From: Muribaculaceae bacterium
GTDB lineage: Bacteria; Bacteroidota; Bacteroidia; Bacteroidales; Muribaculaceae
Assembly: GCA_022510465.1 (NCBI GenBank)
Contig: JAFLTJ010000003.1
Location: 1-64,000, forward strand
DNA: 64,000 nucleotides
Direction: 5' to 3'
This document shows, piece by piece, positions 42,374 to 62,605 of this stretch (position 1 is the stretch's first letter; every line of letters starts with the position of its first letter). A program made the translations under genes and the position numbers. The notes under the pieces were generated by a model that was not told the DNA's origin, searched no databases, and worked only from the letters and a program-made list of their open reading frames with translations.

Positions 42374-42565
42374 GCCACCCATCACGCCGCGTCAGCCCGG
42401 ACAGCAGGCTTCCAAGCCTGCGCCATCACCGCCACCCATCACGCCGCGTCAGCCCGGACAGCAGGCTTCCAAGCCTGCGCCCAGCGCGGCGGAGCCGCAG
42501 CCACTTCGTTAGCCCCCGACAAAGGCCCGAGGAGCGCCAGCGACGCAGGACCGGTCGGGGTTCCT
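42374..42565. repeat. REP-like island with 57-base tandem duplication
   Basis: Two module A palindromes, at 42404-42421 and 42461-42478, sit in a direct tandem repeat of period 57 (the units start GCCACCCATCACGCCGCG). A module C copy (about 42481-42509) and a module B copy without its usual start follow (GTTAGCCCCCGAC to GGTCGGGG, about 42508-42560). The island lies between divergent promoters, of the secreted protein gene and of the lipoprotein gene. Confidence 0.85.
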
Positions 42566-42626: not shown

Positions 42627-43022
42627 ATGAAAGCAATCAACCTAAAAAAAGCCCGAACAGGACTGATAGCCACCATCCTGTTCACCATCGCCTCAACCCT
42701 CTCGCTGACATCTTGCGACGACATTCGAGGTGACATATACTACAACGACCTCGTCGGCGTGTGGGAGCTCACCGGAGCCCCATTCTACGAAGTAAGCCAA
42801 TTTCAGTTCAACTACGACGGCTCAGGCTACTATTCCGCCTACGACTACTACGGCAACTGGCAGTCATGGTACTTCACCTACGAGATTCGCGGCTCACAAA
42901 TCAGAATCGACCTCTGGGATGGGCAGACATGGTTCTATCGATACCAAACCCGCGGCGACATGCTGATTCTCATCGACATGCAGATGCCGGGCAACACCCT
43001 ATACTACCGCTATGTCTACTGA
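42627..43022 (+). CDS. Small lipoprotein, lipocalin-like
   Basis: 131 residues. A lipoprotein signal (MKAINLKKARTGLIATILF followed by TIASTLSLTSC, Cys at about 30) leads to a 95-residue domain rich in Tyr and Trp. The pattern LVGVWELTGAPFYE...FNYDGSGYYSAYDYYG fits lipocalin-like small lipoproteins of Bacteroidota. The stop overlaps the pseudokinase gene by 11 bases, indicating a two-gene unit. Confidence 0.82.
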   Translation: MKAINLKKARTGLIATILFTIASTLSLTSCDDIRGDIYYNDLVGVWELTGAPFYEVSQFQFNYDGSGYYSAYDYYGNWQSWYFTYEIRGSQIRIDLWDGQTWFYRYQTRGDMLILIDMQMPGNTLYYRYVY

Positions 43023-43851
43023 CGATAAAATATACACCGACTCAACTTCCGGCAAAAAAGTAGCAATCGCAACCGGCAGCACACCACCTCCAACCGGACC
43101 CTGGAATCCACCCGGACAAACCAAATGGACCGAGGTTGAACACCTCCCCGAGTGGGACGAAGAGTTCTACCACGTCTACACCGCCAAGAAACACGGAAAA
43201 TGGTTGATGCTCAAAACATTGCGCCCCGAGTTCAAAGGCAACCCCGACATGGAGGCAATGATTGAGAAAGAGTTTGACGTAAGATACAACCTCGCCCACC
43301 CCGCCATCGTCATGATAAACGATTTTGAAGACGTTCCCGGGCTGGGCCGCTGCATTATAACCGACGACGTCTACGGCGACTCTCTGCGCAAACTGATTGA
43401 AACCCACAGCGTTACACCAATGCACATCGAGCGTCTCCGCTCGCAGCTCGTCAGCGCCCTGGAATACATCCAGCAAAACCATCTCATTCACCACCCCCTT
43501 CGCCCCGAGCGAATCATCTTCACCGAAAACATCGGCAATCTAAAACTCATCGACGTGGGATTCGACCAAAAATCGAGCCTACCCCCCGCCGACGTCAGCG
43601 ACGACATCAACAACTACGGCCTCGTTTTGCTCGAAGCCCTCAACGCCTGCGAAAGCCCCGACCCACGGTTGCGGCACGTCGCCGAGCGGTGTGTCGACCC
43701 GCGTCGGCGATACCGCAACATCCAGGCCCTGCGCCTCGCCCTCGAAAACCGCCGAGGCAATCGCCTGATGCTCGTTATAATCCTATTCCTGACCGCCATG
43801 GTTGCGCTCCTAATGTTCCTAAACTCGCGCCCCGCGGCCATAAATCCTTGA
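43012..43851 (+). CDS. Membrane-anchored pseudokinase (protein-kinase fold)
   Basis: 279 residues. A kinase-like domain (about 40-240) is followed by a C-terminal membrane segment (about 252-270). The ATP-lysine is retained (WLMLKTL, K68), as are an acidic alpha-C helix (E85/E87) and D181 of the DFG triplet (reads DVG). The catalytic HRD loop reads H160-H161-P162 (HHPLRPER), so the catalytic Asp and the following Asn are lost. The Gly-rich loop is also poor. It may bind nucleotide or act as scaffold. Overlap with the lipoprotein gene suggests a shared job. Confidence 0.82.
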   Translation: MSTDDKIYTDSTSGKKVAIATGSTPPPTGPWNPPGQTKWTEVEHLPEWDEEFYHVYTAKKHGKWLMLKTLRPEFKGNPDMEAMIEKEFDVRYNLAHPAIVMINDFEDVPGLGRCIITDDVYGDSLRKLIETHSVTPMHIERLRSQLVSALEYIQQNHLIHHPLRPERIIFTENIGNLKLIDVGFDQKSSLPPADVSDDINNYGLVLLEALNACESPDPRLRHVAERCVDPRRRYRNIQALRLALENRRGNRLMLVIILFLTAMVALLMFLNSRPAAINP

Positions 43852-43884: not shown

Positions 43885-45018
43885 ATGCCACTGAAAGTTG
43901 TTCCCGTTCCGGCCACAAAAAAAGAACTTCAAAAATTCATCAAATTCGGAATCGACCTTTACAAAGGCAACGACTGTTACGTTCCACCGCTCATCCTCGA
44001 CGAGATTAACACCCTCAGGCCCGACAAAAACCCGGCATTCGACTTCTGTGATTGCCAGGCATTTATGGCCTATCAAGACGGAAAGCCCGTGGGACGCATC
44101 GCCGGCATAATCAACCACGAAGTAAACCGCCGAACATCCCGCCGAACACTCCGGTTCGGCTTCTGCGACTTTATCGACAGCAACGACGTCGTCGACGCCC
44201 TCTTTGCTGCCGTCAAGAAGTGGGGTGCCGAGCGTGGCATGGATGAAATCGTTGGCCCCATGGGATTTACCGACCTCGACTATGAAGGAATGCTCATCGA
44301 AGGCTTCAACGAGCTCGGAACAATGTCAACCCTTTACAACTACCCCTACTACCCCGCCCAGATGGAGCGGATGGGATTCCGGAAAGAAACCGACTGGGTT
44401 GAATATCGCATGACCGTTCCCGACGCTGTCCCCGAGAAACACATGCGCATCGCCGAGATTGTTCGCAAAAAATACAACCTCCGCGTCATCGACGAAATAC
44501 CCTCGCGCAAGTGGCTCAAAGACAAGTATGGCCGGCAGATTTTCGAGCTCATCAACCAGGCCTACGACGGCCTTTACGGATACTCACCCCTGACGCCCCG
44601 GCAGATAGATTACTACATCGGCATGTATCTCGGCGTGTTGCGTCTCGACTGTATATCACTCATCGTCGACTCTACCGACACCCTCGTCGGCGTCGGTATC
44701 TCAATACCGTCACTGTCGCGAGCCCTCCAAAACTGCGGCGGCCGCCTGTTCCCATTCGGTTGGGCCGGCATTTACAAAGCCCTCACCCTCAAAAACGACA
44801 TCGTCGACCTCCTTCTCGTCGCCGTCAAGCCCGAATACCTCAGCAAAGGCGTCAACGCACTCCTCTTCGCCCAGCTCATCCCCGTTTACATCAAGCACGG
44901 ATTCAAATGGGCCGAAAGCAACCCCGAGCTCGACGACAACGCAAACGTGCAAAACCAGTGGCAATACTTCGAGCGACGACAGCACCGCCGCCGCCGCGCC
45001 TACCGCGCCCCGCTATAA
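43885..45018 (+). CDS. GNAT-like acyltransferase-fold protein
   Basis: 377 residues, soluble. The N-terminal half contains the phrases FVPPLILDE-like (YVPPLILDEINTLRP), AFMAYQDGKPVGRIAGIINHEVN and GFCDFIDSNDVVDALFAAVKKW, resembling one GNAT half. The centre has EIVGPMGFTDLDYEGMLIEGF. The second half (about 230-365) could be another GNAT-like half ending in WAESNPELDDNANVQNQW. I recognise this as a widespread Bacteroidota family without a defined substrate. It lies 33 bases after the pseudokinase gene and converges with the phosphatase. Confidence 0.8.
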   Translation: MPLKVVPVPATKKELQKFIKFGIDLYKGNDCYVPPLILDEINTLRPDKNPAFDFCDCQAFMAYQDGKPVGRIAGIINHEVNRRTSRRTLRFGFCDFIDSNDVVDALFAAVKKWGAERGMDEIVGPMGFTDLDYEGMLIEGFNELGTMSTLYNYPYYPAQMERMGFRKETDWVEYRMTVPDAVPEKHMRIAEIVRKKYNLRVIDEIPSRKWLKDKYGRQIFELINQAYDGLYGYSPLTPRQIDYYIGMYLGVLRLDCISLIVDSTDTLVGVGISIPSLSRALQNCGGRLFPFGWAGIYKALTLKNDIVDLLLVAVKPEYLSKGVNALLFAQLIPVYIKHGFKWAESNPELDDNANVQNQWQYFERRQHRRRRAYRAPL

Positions 45019-45025
45019 TTCATTC

Positions 45026-46303
45026 TTAGTCAGAGTTTTTCAACAGATATCGCTCCCGCAAGTCGCTCCAGCGATAATACATCCCCTCGACAGGCGTCGC
45101 CGGCAGCCCGACCTCGCGCTCGTTCAGCATAGCCTTCACAAGGATGTCATCCTCCGTGTACTCCCGCCCGTACGGCCGGTAAAATATCAGCTGAACATTC
45201 GCCGCCATCGGAAAAACCTCATAATTTCGCCATCCCCCCTCGTCGGTCACCAAATCCTCCAGCCGACGATACTCCTTGGCATAATCATCAATCTCCAGCA
45301 GCACAACAAGCGGCATCAGCACACTCTCATGCCCGAATCTCAGATTCACGCTCTGACGCGGCGACATCAACGCCGTGTCGGCACTCTCCACTATGTTGTG
45401 AAGCAGCGCCACATGATTGGTAGCCGCCTTTCCCCCCGTCACAGGCCAGTTCCCGCTGCGCCAAAACCAGAATGCATTCGTGCGCAGCCACTGTTCATGA
45501 ATCTCATCGCGGCTGAAAACCGTCGCAATGTCACTCTGCGCTCCGTGTGAAACCGAGTTGGCCGCTATATCAAAAAGGTCATCGTTAAATCGCTTAATAT
45601 CAACGCTATCCGCTATCAGCCGGTCGTCACTGATAAGGACCTTTGCAAAATCGCCTCTTATCGGATACTTGTTGCGGAACGCCTCCAGCGAATCCTTTAC
45701 AGCCTCCACCCGCTTCCACGACGCAGTTGCCTCTGGATTAGCGATATAGTACATATCTGCCGCCGATGCATCGGTGTGCACAACCAAGTCATCATAAATC
45801 GATGCAAGCTCCTCTATCTCATTGAGCATCGACAGAATACAGCGTATAACCGCCGACGAGCGAGCATCCACGCAGGTCCCCGGCGCAAAAACCGTAGGAA
45901 AATTGCGAGCCATGCGCCGCGCTATTCCGCGATGTTGCTCTGCGCCAAGTTGCGTCAGCTCTCCGTCGCGGCCCGTCGCCTTGATTCTCAGCGTTTTAAG
46001 CTCAGCCAAGACCTCCGCGCCGCGTGGCGTCAACGCCCCGGCGCGCCCGGCCATTTCAAGCACATCCACAGGATATTGATAACGCCCCTCCCCAATAAGC
46101 CACCGGCTGCCGTGGCGCCCGTAATGCTCTATGTGAAAGGCCCTATAGCCCTCCGGTGCCGGCGTTGGCCGGCCTATCGCCGACCCCTCGGGATAAGCTT
46201 GATAGTTGGCCGCAGCCTCCGGAAACGCAACCGGCTCAACCGCGTGCCCGGCCACACCTGCGGCCAGCAGACACCCCGCTATATAAACCGTCAGCTTCTT
46301 CAT
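45026..46303 (-). CDS. Histidine acid phosphatase (phytase/MINPP-like)
   Basis: 425 residues with a signal peptide (1-21). The phosphohistidine motif RHGSR is at 63-67 in EHYGRHGSRWL. The distal proton-donor motif is HE in RFGHESVLMPLV (about 330). This combination resembles Bacteroides MINPP-type phosphatases, which act on inositol phosphates and other phosphomonoesters in the periplasm or on vesicles. Its ATG overlaps the stop of the upstream membrane protein by four bases. Confidence 0.9.
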   Translation of the reverse strand: MKKLTVYIAGCLLAAGVAGHAVEPVAFPEAAANYQAYPEGSAIGRPTPAPEGYRAFHIEHYGRHGSRWLIGEGRYQYPVDVLEMAGRAGALTPRGAEVLAELKTLRIKATGRDGELTQLGAEQHRGIARRMARNFPTVFAPGTCVDARSSAVIRCILSMLNEIEELASIYDDLVVHTDASAADMYYIANPEATASWKRVEAVKDSLEAFRNKYPIRGDFAKVLISDDRLIADSVDIKRFNDDLFDIAANSVSHGAQSDIATVFSRDEIHEQWLRTNAFWFWRSGNWPVTGGKAATNHVALLHNIVESADTALMSPRQSVNLRFGHESVLMPLVVLLEIDDYAKEYRRLEDLVTDEGGWRNYEVFPMAANVQLIFYRPYGREYTEDDILVKAMLNEREVGLPATPVEGMYYRWSDLRERYLLKNSD

Positions 46304-48393
46304 CGGCTGGGGCGAGGCGACTGATTAGGCGTGCTCGGCTTGCGGCGCGCCAGGTCCTCATACAGGTTGTGGATGTTAACCGACTCTTTCCCGTCATATT
46401 TCTTCAACGCATTGCGGTTCCCGTTCTCGTTGGGCGTGCCAAGCGCTTTCCACGCCATTTCAACCATTTCCACAGCCTCGCGGTTGGTTGCCCGGCCGCT
46501 CACCGCAAAATAGTCATTCCCCGCAATTGCCTCAATATCACCCTTTTGGATTGCCGCGAGCAAATCACGATACTTTTGCGTTTTAAGCTCGCTTGCTTTC
46601 CAAACTTGGTTATTGTTAAGATACGCAATATCAGCCTGTTCGTCGCCGCTCTGCGTGGCCGGCGCCGCCGGTTGCTGCTGCGTCTCGGCGGTGGTGCCGT
46701 TGCCGGCATTGCCATCGGTAGCCCCCTCGATAACCTTCACAACATCAGCCCCTAAGGCCGTGTCGACATTATGAGCCTCAATCACATCCGGGTCTTTAGC
46801 ATCATCCTCGCCCGTTTTGGTCGAGGTAGGCAGGAAATATATCAACGCCAGCACCATAAGCACCGCCGACAGCGCCACTCCGAGGTATATCGCCGCCTTT
46901 CCGTCGCGTTTTTCATGCTGCTCCTCCCCGCCCAATGTCGACACATTGTCATCACCGGCCGAAACAGTCCGCTCCGCTTTCTCCTGCTTTTTATGCTTAT
47001 CTTTCGACGACTCACCCTCGCCTCTCGATATATTCTCAAATACCGGAATTTTACGACCCTGAGCCTCAGCCGTTGCCGAGGTATGAGTCGTTCCCGAAAC
47101 GTTGTCAAACGTCGGCGCCGTTGGCTTGGATGCCGCACGGACATCAACATTGTAAGCCTCGCTTGCACCCTGGCCCGAGATTCTATACGCACGGAAGCCA
47201 TGGAAAGTCCCCGAGTGCAACTGGCTGTATTCAGGCGTGTTGCGCTCTATCGAAATCTCCTGTTCAAACAAGCGCCCCTCCCCGAAATCAAGCCGCAGCA
47301 AGATACCCTGCTCCAGCGGCTCCAGAACTATGTCAAGCGTCTCAATATTAGCAAGTTCCGCCGGGTCCTTCTCCAATTTTATCGGCCTGAAATTGTTTGA
47401 CGCAATATTAATCTGAACCTTTTTGCCCGAAGTCATGTCATGCTCCGTCAGCTCTATCACCGGCTCTAAAGTATTGATAGAACGGCCGTTTACGCTTATC
47501 GTATACCCATGAACAGCCCCACCCTTGGCGCTGGTTACATTCAGCTTGACTCGACGCGTAAACGACAAACCACACTCCGACGCATTCTTAATCCTAATCA
47601 GCCCCCCGTCAATCTTCGCGTAAGGCGACGGAATCCCGGCCGTTATAATCTGCTTTGACGGATTAAAGCCCGGTTTTGAGAACATAACCGTTATACGGTC
47701 ACCCTCAACCGCATTGGCCGGCGTCGCACCCACCCCGGCAGGCGATTCAACCCAAAACTCCCGGTCGATAGGCCTTGACAGACGCGCCAGCGGAGCATTC
47801 GGCTTCAACGACGACGTCGCCGACACTATCAGAACGCGACGATAGAACCGATACTCCTCCTGATAGGGGAACGACAGAATCATATCAAGCTCATGACCGT
47901 TGGCGTATGTTCGGTAGCCCGTACCCTTAGGCTGCTGTTCCGTCGGCAGCTGGATATTCTGCTCACGGTCGGCCAGTTCGCCTATTATAGCATAATTCTC
48001 CGGCAGACCGACGCTGTCGAGCGCACGCACAATCGACTCCATATCCTTGGCATCCTCCTCTATCAGCGTCTTGCGCAGAGCGCTCAGCGCCGAGATAACA
48101 TGACGCCCCGACAGCAAAACCCCGTGAGGCACCATCAGCGACAGCAACATCGCCCCGCTTGACGGATTCAACGGATTGCGCGTAACCAATCCATAGTAAC
48201 ATCCGCCCACCGTCTGCCACATCGCATAACACTCCCGGGCGTTGTTAAACTGCTCCAACACCTTGGTCGGATTAAACACCGTCATCTTAGTCTCCGCCTG
48301 ACCCTCGGCAACCGCCGGAAACCTCACCGACGTTTTAAGCGAGTCGCCAAACTGGCCATAAAGAGATATTTTGATATAATCGTATTTACCCAT
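46300..48393 (-). CDS. Large single-pass membrane protein of unknown function
   Basis: 697 residues from ATG 48393. The first 480 residues lack a signal peptide and are probably cytoplasmic. They have a region with MWQTVGGCYYGLVTRNPLNPSSG and LLSGRHVISALSALRKTLIEEDAKD, then beta-rich repeats. A charged linker (about 450-495) precedes one membrane segment (about 501-524, AIYLGVALSAVLMVLALIYF). The last 170 residues would lie outside the inner membrane and include a helical region (WKASELKTQKYRDLLAAIQKGD). I recognise no family. Stop-start overlap with the phosphatase gene suggests joint production. Confidence 0.75.
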   Translation of the reverse strand: MGKYDYIKISLYGQFGDSLKTSVRFPAVAEGQAETKMTVFNPTKVLEQFNNARECYAMWQTVGGCYYGLVTRNPLNPSSGAMLLSLMVPHGVLLSGRHVISALSALRKTLIEEDAKDMESIVRALDSVGLPENYAIIGELADREQNIQLPTEQQPKGTGYRTYANGHELDMILSFPYQEEYRFYRRVLIVSATSSLKPNAPLARLSRPIDREFWVESPAGVGATPANAVEGDRITVMFSKPGFNPSKQIITAGIPSPYAKIDGGLIRIKNASECGLSFTRRVKLNVTSAKGGAVHGYTISVNGRSINTLEPVIELTEHDMTSGKKVQINIASNNFRPIKLEKDPAELANIETLDIVLEPLEQGILLRLDFGEGRLFEQEISIERNTPEYSQLHSGTFHGFRAYRISGQGASEAYNVDVRAASKPTAPTFDNVSGTTHTSATAEAQGRKIPVFENISRGEGESSKDKHKKQEKAERTVSAGDDNVSTLGGEEQHEKRDGKAAIYLGVALSAVLMVLALIYFLPTSTKTGEDDAKDPDVIEAHNVDTALGADVVKVIEGATDGNAGNGTTAETQQQPAAPATQSGDEQADIAYLNNNQVWKASELKTQKYRDLLAAIQKGDIEAIAGNDYFAVSGRATNREAVEMVEMAWKALGTPNENGNRNALKKYDGKESVNIHNLYEDLARRKPSTPNQSPRPSR

Positions 48394-48554: not shown

Positions 48555-48694
48555 CACGCCGCGCCAGCCCGGAAAGCAGGCTTCCAAGCCTCCGCCCGTC
48601 GCCGCGACCCATCCTGCCGTTTTTTTCCGCAGGCTTGGAAGCCTGCGGCTCCGGGCCCATCCTGCCGTTTTTCACGCAAATGCCGCGGAGCGGC
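48555..48694. repeat. BIME-like REP pair
   Basis: Two module A palindromes in opposite orientation, at 48576-48593 (one arm TCC instead of TGC) and 48629-48646, start 53 bases apart. The linker contains CCCATCCTGCCGTTTTTTT. A GCCGCGGAGCGGC element follows near 48682. The island reaches the 3' end of the higA gene. The preceding stretch 48426-48554 is AT-rich without visible features. Confidence 0.85.
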
Positions 48695-49090: not shown

Positions 49091-49820
49091 GGCTCCTGGC
49101 CCGTGCAAAATTGCCCGGAGGGCATAAAGATTGTTAGCCCCCGACAAAGGCCCCAGGAGCGCCAGCGACACAGGGCCGGTCGGGGGAAAACGGGTCTATC
49201 TATCGTAAACCTACCCCGGAGGGGTTGCACCCCAATCGCGTTCATCCCATTCAAATTGATATTCCATCGCCAATTGTTTCATTTCGGTGATGAAATCTTT
49301 CTCGTTATGGCTTGTATCTTGATTTATAATGTATTGCACACAGGCCGCCTCCTCATTCGCTCCGATTGAAGCGGCATAATAGCCTTCGTTCCACCCGGAG
49401 AATTTTTTAAAATCGATTTCATTTTTCATCCAAAGCGAGGTTGACTGCTTGATTTCTTTTACGAGGGTAGCCAACGCAACACTCGGATGAAGGTCTATAA
49501 GAATGTGAACATGGTCGGCGAGACCATTAATGCGCAGCGTTTTACACCGATATTTCTGAATAATACCGTGAATATATGCATACAGCCTGCGCTTGTGATT
49601 TAAAGAAATTGTCGGTTGCCGATATTTTGTACTGAATACAATGTGCACCAAAATACGTGTCTTGCTCATGACGGCAAATTTAGCCATTTTTCGTTGAAAG
49701 TCCAACCCCTCACGGGGTTGGATATGGTGGGTGGTCTATTCCCCCCCGACCGGTCCTGCGTTCGCTTCACGCTCCGCGGACCTTTGTCGGGGGCTTACAA
49801 TCTTAAGCCGCTCCGCGGCT
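49091..49820. mobile_element. RAYT gene between inverted module-B repeats (candidate REPtron)
   Basis: Module B on the left (49111-49186, stem arms CCCCCGAC 49138-49145 and GTCGGGGG 49179-49186) and on the right in reverse orientation (about 49741-49800, CCCCCGACCGG to TGTCGGGGG) enclose the tyrosine transposase gene. Inner GC-rich hairpins (GGGGTTGCACCCC-like near 49213-49232, and CAACCCCTCACGGGGTTGG at about 49708-49726) lie next to each gene end. The inverted symmetry suggests one unit. I cannot define exact ends or target duplications. Confidence 0.6.
49211..49669 (-). CDS. REP-associated tyrosine transposase (RAYT, Y1_Tnp family)
   Basis: 152 residues from ATG 49669. The metal-binding HUH motif is H53-V-H55 in GLADHVHILIDL. 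The nucleophile is Y113 in YIINQ, with Q117 completing the YxxxQ pattern. The length and the N terminus (SKTRILVHIVFSTKYRQPTI) fit single-domain IS200/IS605-like enzymes that cut single-stranded palindromes. No TnpB is adjacent. The C terminus (WGATPPG) is encoded by the hairpin at 49213-49232. An in-frame start 36 bases upstream is possible. All catalytic residues look intact. Confidence 0.9.
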   Translation of the reverse strand: MSKTRILVHIVFSTKYRQPTISLNHKRRLYAYIHGIIQKYRCKTLRINGLADHVHILIDLHPSVALATLVKEIKQSTSLWMKNEIDFKKFSGWNEGYYAASIGANEEAACVQYIINQDTSHNEKDFITEMKQLAMEYQFEWDERDWGATPPG

Positions 49821-50214: not shown

Positions 50215-50617
50215 AAGTCGCGCGAAGCCCGGAAAGCAGGCTTCCAAGCCTGCGCCATCACAGCCGCCCGGTGGTGGCGGTTAGTGGCACCCCGCCGGGG
50301 TGCGAGTCGGGTGGGGGCACCAATCCGGGCACATCGCTCGCTACGCGAGCTCGTACCCGGTTATCGAGCTTGCTGCCGCTCCGCGGCGCTCTCCGTCGCG
50401 TCGCGTTAGCCCGGAAAGCAGGCTTCCAAGCCTGCGGCTTTTGCGGCGACCCATCCTGCCGTATTTTTCCGCAGGCTTGGAAGCCTGCGGCTCCGGGCCC
50501 GTGCCACCGTTTTCCTGCCAATTGCCCGGAGGGCATAAAGATTGTTAGCCCTCGACAAAGGTCCCAGGAGCGCCAGCGACGCAGGACCGGTCGGGGGTTC
50601 CTGCGGCTCCGGGAAAT
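50215..50617. repeat. REP-like mosaic island before the SusD terminator
   Basis: Module A palindromes: 50236-50253, and an inverted pair 50418-50435 / 50471-50488 (start-to-start 53). Module D GCACCCCGCCGGGGTGC is at about 50288-50304. Module C in reverse orientation is at about 50323-50400 (GGCACATCGCTCGCTACGCG to CTGCCGCTCCGCGGC). Module B is at about 50521-50598 (GCCCGGAGGGCATAAAGATTG to GGTCGGGGG). Confidence 0.87.
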
Positions 50618-57059: not shown

Positions 57060-57263
57060 GCCCCGAAAAGCAGGTTTCCAAACCTGCGCCTTTCACCGAA
57101 GACCCATGCTGCCGTTTTTTCCGCAGGCTTGGAAGCCTGCGCCTTTCACCGCCACCCATCACGCCGCGTCAGCCCGGAAAGCAGGTTTCCAAACCTGCGC
57201 CTTTCACCGTGACCCATGCTGCCGTTTTTTCCGCAGGCTTGGAAGCCTGCGGCTCCGGGCCCG
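57060..57263. repeat. Two BIME-like REP pairs with compensated stem changes
   Basis: Pair 1: 57070-57087 and 57123-57140; pair 2: 57181-57198 and 57233-57250. In each pair the left core reads GCAGGTTTCCAAACCTGC, with C-to-T and G-to-A changes on opposite arms that keep the stem perfect. The right cores have the standard form in reverse. The spacers contain ACCCATGCTGCCGTTTTTT. Start-to-start distances are 53 and 52. Confidence 0.9.
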
Positions 57264-62236: not shown

Positions 62237-62605
62237 CGGACCCATCACACCGCGTCAGCCCGGAAAGCAGGCTTCCAAGCCTGCGCCTTTCACCGTGACC
62301 CATGCTGCCGTTTTTTCCGCAGGCTTGGAAGCCTGCGGCTCCGGGGCCGTGCAAAATTGCCCGGAGGGCATAAAGATTGTTAGCCCTCGACTTTCGAGCC
62401 GCCAGGCGAGTTGTCGGGGGTCGCTTCCAAGCCTGCGGCATTCACAGCGACCCATCACACCGCGTCAGCCTGGAAAGCAGGCTTCCAAGCCTGCGGTAGC
62501 GCCGCGGAGCGGCAGCCACTTCGATAACCCCGTACGAGCTCGCACCGCGAGCGACGTGCGGGGCCAGCGCCACTTCACGACATCGCACCCCGGCGGGGTG
62601 CTACT
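62237..62605. repeat. REP-like mosaic island (modules A, B, C, D)
   Basis: Inverted module A pair at 62267-62284 and 62319-62336 (start-to-start 52), a further perfect A at 62467-62484 and a half copy near 62423-62436. Module B at about 62356-62420 uses the TTTCGAGCC...GGCGAGTT loop variant between arms CCCTCGAC and GTCGGGGG. Module C (CCGCGGAGCGGCAGCCACTTCG then CCCCGTACGAGCTCGC) runs from about 62500 to 62563. Module D (GCACCCCGGCGGGGTGC) is at about 62585-62601. Confidence 0.88.

Follow-up and report, generated by a model that had tools for sequence, protein, structure and literature searches.

A membrane-anchored pseudokinase family of Muribaculaceae encoded directly upstream of a GNAT-type N-acyltransferase

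The window analysed here, a stretch of 64,000 nucleotides from a Muribaculaceae bacterium (GenBank assembly GCA_022510465.1, contig JAFLTJ010000003.1, positions 1 to 64,000), carries a gene for a 279-residue membrane-anchored, kinase-like protein, which we call psK, and the invariant partner of psK is the next gene, which encodes an N-acyltransferase of the GNAT superfamily (43885-45018). Judged by its sequence, psK is a true, conserved pseudokinase family, since the catalytic aspartate of the HRD motif is absent from every aligned member and the gene is under purifying selection. We consider it probable that psK, without acting as an enzyme itself, anchors a lipid N-acyltransferase at the membrane or serves as its regulatory subunit, with a sphingolipid-type enzyme as the probable case. 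This reading builds on the pseudokinase state of the sequence, the membrane helix, the invariant gene linkage, the GNAT fold of the neighbour, and the linkage of the GNAT superfamily to serine palmitoyltransferase (Spt).

Sequence, predicted fold and distribution of psK

The psK gene lies on the plus strand, with its ATG at 43012 and its stop codon ending at 43851. Residues 55-187 match the Pfam family Pkinase (E 2.3e-11), a match found in 75 of 75 orthologues, and the kinase-like domain, delimited from alignments, the comparison with active paralogues and the secondary structure of the AlphaFold model, comprises residues 39-245 (43126-43746). The model, based on 75 sequences, adopts a kinase fold with a mean pLDDT of 84, as the original prediction had supposed, and the solved structures closest to it are the kinase domains of M. 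tuberculosis PknB (Foldseek, E 2.5e-12). The domain is followed by a long hydrophobic C-terminal helix (residues 247-271, 43750-43824), which agrees with the membrane anchor proposed earlier and has an aligned counterpart in the C-lobe-only remnants described below. A basic stretch precedes this helix, as would suit a tail-anchored protein with its domain in the cytoplasm. Neither Pfam nor the model indicates any further domain in the 279 residues.

The pattern of conserved and lost residues was determined in an alignment of 81 sequences. The beta3 lysine (K68, codon 43213-43215) and the alphaC glutamate (E87) are conserved in 81 of 81, and the alphaF aspartate (D198) is invariant. Where HRD would be, the protein of the window has H160-H161-P162; the histidine of the motif is invariant in the family, while the position of the catalytic aspartate (codon 43495-43497) is occupied by proline in 77 sequences, alanine in 2 and glutamine in 2. 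The aspartate of the DVG motif (D181, codon 43552-43554) is present in 77 sequences and replaced by asparagine in the other 4. The original claim, made for one protein, that the lysine and the DVG aspartate were kept and the HRD aspartate lost, describes the family apart from these 4 sequences, and no orthologue in the alignment has an intact HRD motif. Two losses can be added to it: the glycines of the glycine loop are gone, with a conserved LPEWDEE stretch in their place, and most of the activation segment is missing together with its APE motif, which leaves a 21-residue gap relative to the active paralogue L028. The position of the metal-binding asparagine is arginine or threonine in most sequences, and the hinge motif TDDVYG is nearly invariant.

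The active paralogues are membrane Ser/Thr kinases of Bacteroidales that are about 30% identical to psK. They share with psK a glycine-poor N-lobe and the KEF motif of helix alphaC, and one of them, L002, which is encoded in the same genome, likewise carries a membrane helix after its kinase domain. In contrast to psK, they retain the HRD-type aspartate and a full activation segment with APE.

Of 37 sampled Muribaculaceae genomes, 26 have an orthologue of psK (53-84% identity), and a wider count, taken as table rows at E below 1e-50, gives about 270 of 397 genomes of the family. The named loci belong to Muribaculaceae, including Duncaniella muris, Heminiphilus faecis and Paramuribaculum. In two close pairs dN/dS is about 0.02-0.05, so that synonymous change far exceeds non-synonymous change and psK is not a decaying gene; together with the breadth of its distribution, this indicates more than chance preservation. 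A literature search on the psK protein and on Muribaculaceae pseudokinases found no paper.

Gene neighbourhood of psK and the linked acyltransferase

A GNAT gene is located directly downstream of psK and on the same strand in all 26 sampled genomes with psK and in 80 of 80 named loci, a count that includes 16 loci in which the end of psK coincides with, or slightly overlaps, the start of the GNAT match. In the window the two genes are 33 nt apart, a spacing to which the original prediction gave no weight, and the spacing across the 80 named loci goes from small overlaps to about 90 nt, with a single locus at 204 nt. Among the loci examined psK was never seen without the GNAT gene; the pair is kept across more than 20 genera, in flanks that are rearranged, and no other neighbour family is common to more than 8 of the 26 sampled genomes. 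Both genes are under purifying selection. The protein encoded from 43885 had been named earlier only as a candidate for a two-hybrid assay, and these counts support its linkage to psK. An apparent fusion of the two genes in L141 was ruled out, as a stop codon separates them.

Other candidates for a role at the locus were set aside. The protein at 46300, the second one proposed for the two-hybrid assay, has a homologue near psK in only one other sampled genome. A function of psK as a defence kinase was rejected because its PADLOC matches to PD-T4-6 reflect general kinase similarity and the two genes form a conserved core rather than part of a defence island.

Several other elements of the window were recorded. 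The minus strand at 46303-48393 encodes a 697-residue protein with one probable transmembrane helix and no Pfam family over the cut-off, and in one other genome, L038, a homologue of it is encoded about 3.7 kb before psK. The palindromic repeat CAGGCTTCCAAGCCTG occurs in 14 copies in the window, with one mismatch allowed and 0 expected, at 42405-42477 and at 12 further sites (e.g. 15070, 38934, 48577-48645, 50237-50487, 57124-57249 and 62268-62493). There are 100 copies in the same genome and none in 10 relatives, two of which are of the same genus; it looks like a recently expanded REP-like element. An IS200-type Y1 transposase gene (49211-49705, minus strand; Pfam Y1_Tnp, 3.2e-27) has a different GC-rich palindromic element on either side, at about 49140-49190 and 49745-49800, an arrangement like that of a REP-associated tyrosine transposase.

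The partner gene (43885-45018, plus strand) encodes a protein of 377 residues, which is assigned as a double-GNAT N-acyltransferase from its Pfam match, its model and its linkage. The Pfam family Acetyltransf_1 is matched by 64 of 71 partner orthologues, and the predicted structure is a double GNAT with a pLDDT of 91. Its best structural matches are the tandem GNATs 2wpw and 7q3a, followed lower down by N-myristoyltransferase, FemX and MprF-type enzymes; a search by sequence for solved relatives of the partner gave none that was convincing. The sequence has no obvious transmembrane segment, and its C-terminal tail is very basic. This gene family is far wider than psK, being present in 54 of 61 relatives and in 102 of 118 Bacteroidota genomes, and the GNAT is older than psK. 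Such a difference in age and breadth is as expected if psK was recruited to the GNAT, and the many genomes with the GNAT and without psK indicate that the enzyme family does not need psK.

Possible substrate of the acyltransferase and C-lobe remnants of psK

A link to sphingolipid synthesis is suggested by gene order outside Muribaculaceae. By hand comparison of the coordinates of both genes, 41 of the 53 Bacteroidota genomes with a strong Spt have a GNAT of the partner's superfamily as the immediate neighbour of Spt. In a tree, most of these Spt-adjacent GNATs form one clade (100/100) that is separate from the clade of the GNAT in the window, within which the gene is found beside Spt in G453, G056 and G048. 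Almost every sampled Muribaculaceae genome has Spt, and so does G000; in this family the GNAT is not beside it. Most likely, the partner attaches the second acyl chain to the long-chain base that Spt produces, the type of step performed by a ceramide synthase. The clade split makes this step an extrapolation, and the superfamily linkage and the presence of Spt in nearly all Muribaculaceae, taken with that split, make it the leading guess rather than a proof.

PF04339, which we take to be the family of the Caulobacter ceramide synthase bCerS, was dropped as a marker of this enzyme, since it gave no match over its cut-off in the relatives of the order Bacteroidales. bCerS itself (CC_1154) lacks a transmembrane segment and associates peripherally with the cytoplasmic face of the inner membrane (PMC11087976). 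The partner of psK may be comparable: it too has no obvious transmembrane segment and is assigned as a double-GNAT N-acyltransferase, and its superfamily shows the linkage to Spt described above. We found no report of a pseudokinase accompanying bCerS. In one Bacteroidales genome (L101, 2841-5122), two tandem diverged GNAT paralogues directly follow Spt and may have two N-acyl specificities.

Sister lineages that lack the full psK have a protein of about 144-209 residues related to its C-lobe and membrane helix. A search of 33 genomes gave this remnant in 15, of which 10 have it directly upstream of the GNAT gene. Its best-conserved piece consists of the last helix of the C-lobe, an SN-(I/L)Y motif and the transmembrane helix, while the nucleotide-binding lobe is missing or unrecognisable. 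The simplest reading of these sequences is that the remnants would derive from psK by reduction. Because those beside the GNAT keep the C-lobe and the anchor and not the nucleotide pocket, they suggest that the portion relevant to the GNAT is the C-lobe with its anchor. Upstream of the acyltransferase locus, lineages that have a remnant or lack psK encode a zinc-ribbon protein with one probable membrane helix (L092, 1975-3420; L094, 3762-5327; L089, 799-2250), which is possibly a further component of that locus.

Proposed role of psK and its place among bacterial pseudokinases

In the model that we favour, psK would have descended from Bacteroidales membrane Ser/Thr kinases and would be catalytically dead. 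Its domain would lie in the cytoplasm, held by the tail anchor in the inner membrane, and psK would serve the N-acyltransferase of the downstream gene as an anchor, scaffold or allosteric regulator, binding this soluble enzyme, holding it at the membrane where its lipid substrate would be, and perhaps tuning it. The physical contact between the two proteins, the recruitment to the membrane and the lipid nature of the substrate are the parts that we infer.

A pure anchor leaves the invariant K68 and E87 of full-length psK unexplained. These two residues are strictly conserved and D181 nearly so, which suggests that nucleotide binding is of importance in the forms that retain the N-lobe, and a bound nucleotide could possibly be a structural cofactor or a signal. 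The strongest alternative to an anchor or regulatory subunit is a nucleotide sensor, which, in the manner of allosteric pseudokinases, would bind ATP or another nucleotide without transferring a phosphate and switch the acyltransferase according to the energy state of the cell. These three residues and the almost invariant hinge are more than a pure scaffold would seem to need; however, the glycine loop is gone, the metal-binding asparagine is mostly replaced, four sequences have lost even the aspartate at D181, and the remnants of the sister lineages occupy the same gene slot with no nucleotide-binding lobe, which argues against a psK that only senses nucleotides. We regard this alternative as rather unlikely. 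The original prediction had left the choice between a nucleotide-sensing and a scaffold protein open; the remnants weaken the first and, by keeping the C-lobe and the helix beside the GNAT, favour the second.

The same retained residues would also be compatible with a psK that has kept or gained an enzymatic activity other than phosphorylation and modifies the acyltransferase or a lipid, as in SelO, which AMPylates, and SidJ, which glutamylates (PMC12599244). Such an activity is very unlikely in a protein that has lost the activation segment, APE and the HRD aspartate altogether, and in which no acidic residue has taken the place of that aspartate, proline being the usual substitute.

The original prediction had itself placed the partner of psK upstream, proposing an envelope signalling pair with a small lipoprotein. 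The gene in question (plus strand, ATG at 42627, stop codon ending at 43022) encodes a lipocalin-like lipoprotein (DUF5640) with the lipobox LTSC, and the ORF coordinates confirm that it overlaps psK by 11 nt (43012-43022). A homologue does recur just upstream of psK, at variable spacing, in 17 of the 80 named loci, and the overlap is seen again in the nearest relative, L120, where it measures 14 nt. However, the overlap is restricted to the closest relatives, the lipoprotein is missing beside psK in most loci, and in the same genome pair it evolves faster, with a dN of 0.38 vs 0.11 for psK. As the two genes are not conserved together, the proposed pair fails, and the lipoprotein is ruled out as a conserved partner; it is a recurrent but optional neighbour, tied to psK by adjacency alone, and we give the envelope pair slightly less credence still than another enzymatic activity.

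Least probable of all is that psK is simply co-transcribed with the acyltransferase and works elsewhere: the conserved adjacency could mean co-regulation only, as in any operon-like arrangement, but the pair has outlasted rearranged flanks in more than 20 genera, psK does not occur without the GNAT gene in the loci examined, and even its reduced forms mostly keep the same place.

Returning to the anchor or regulatory subunit, the closest functional precedent is EssB/YukC, a membrane pseudokinase of type VIIb secretion that works as a scaffold (PMC12599244). Like psK, it is a membrane-anchored bacterial pseudokinase with a degraded glycine loop and a shortened activation loop, and it is non-catalytic (PMC12599244), as psK is predicted to be. 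Unlike psK, a Bacteroidota protein which keeps the beta3 lysine and the DFG-type aspartate, EssB is a Firmicutes protein with all three motifs degraded. It also belongs to secretion, whereas the constant neighbour of psK is a GNAT, which ties it to an acyltransferase; no secretion gene family recurs in the variable flanks of psK in the sampled loci, as a type VIIb locus would have.

Further bacterial families of the Ser/Thr-kinase fold (ActPs1-3, GLW, DLHK, CP1 and DYD) are likewise conserved and without catalytic residues, several with a C-terminal transmembrane segment, and ActPs3 shares a deletion in the activation loop. Their motif patterns differ from that of psK, which of the three key residues loses only the HRD aspartate. 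ActPs1-3 and GLW are defined by divergence in all three catalytic motifs (PMC12599244), in contrast to the retained lysine and nearly constant DFG-type aspartate of psK. DYD has arginine in place of the beta3 lysine and no alphaC glutamate, both invariant in psK, and DLHK keeps the HRD aspartate and has no transmembrane region (PMC12599244), the reverse of psK on both counts. CP1 has no transmembrane segment and is fused to COG3899 (PMC12599244), whereas psK has the helix and no fused domain. The word stem Bacteroid is absent from the 2025 review that lists the bacterial pseudokinase families (PMC12599244). We rate psK as a new family in the already known class of bacterial pseudokinases, and its partner as one of a new kind; the described families are set apart by their published definitions.

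More tentatively, psK may be a dedicated membrane anchor and regulator of a ceramide-synthase-type acyltransferase, comparable in function to the regulatory membrane subunits that eukaryotes use in sphingolipid synthesis. It would have arisen from a signalling kinase in a single family of gut bacteria and would already have been reduced to a C-lobe remnant in some relatives; this fuller picture is a possibility that we hold with reserve.

To our knowledge, bacterial pseudokinases are nearly unstudied. With a single-copy psK tied by invariant gene linkage to one presumed lipid acyltransferase, a major family of gut bacteria offers a case in which the conversion of a kinase fold into an enzyme subunit can be tested directly. 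Gut Bacteroidota pass sphingolipids to their hosts, and if the GNAT enzyme makes sphingolipids, psK would add a regulatory layer to the lipids that are passed on in this way.
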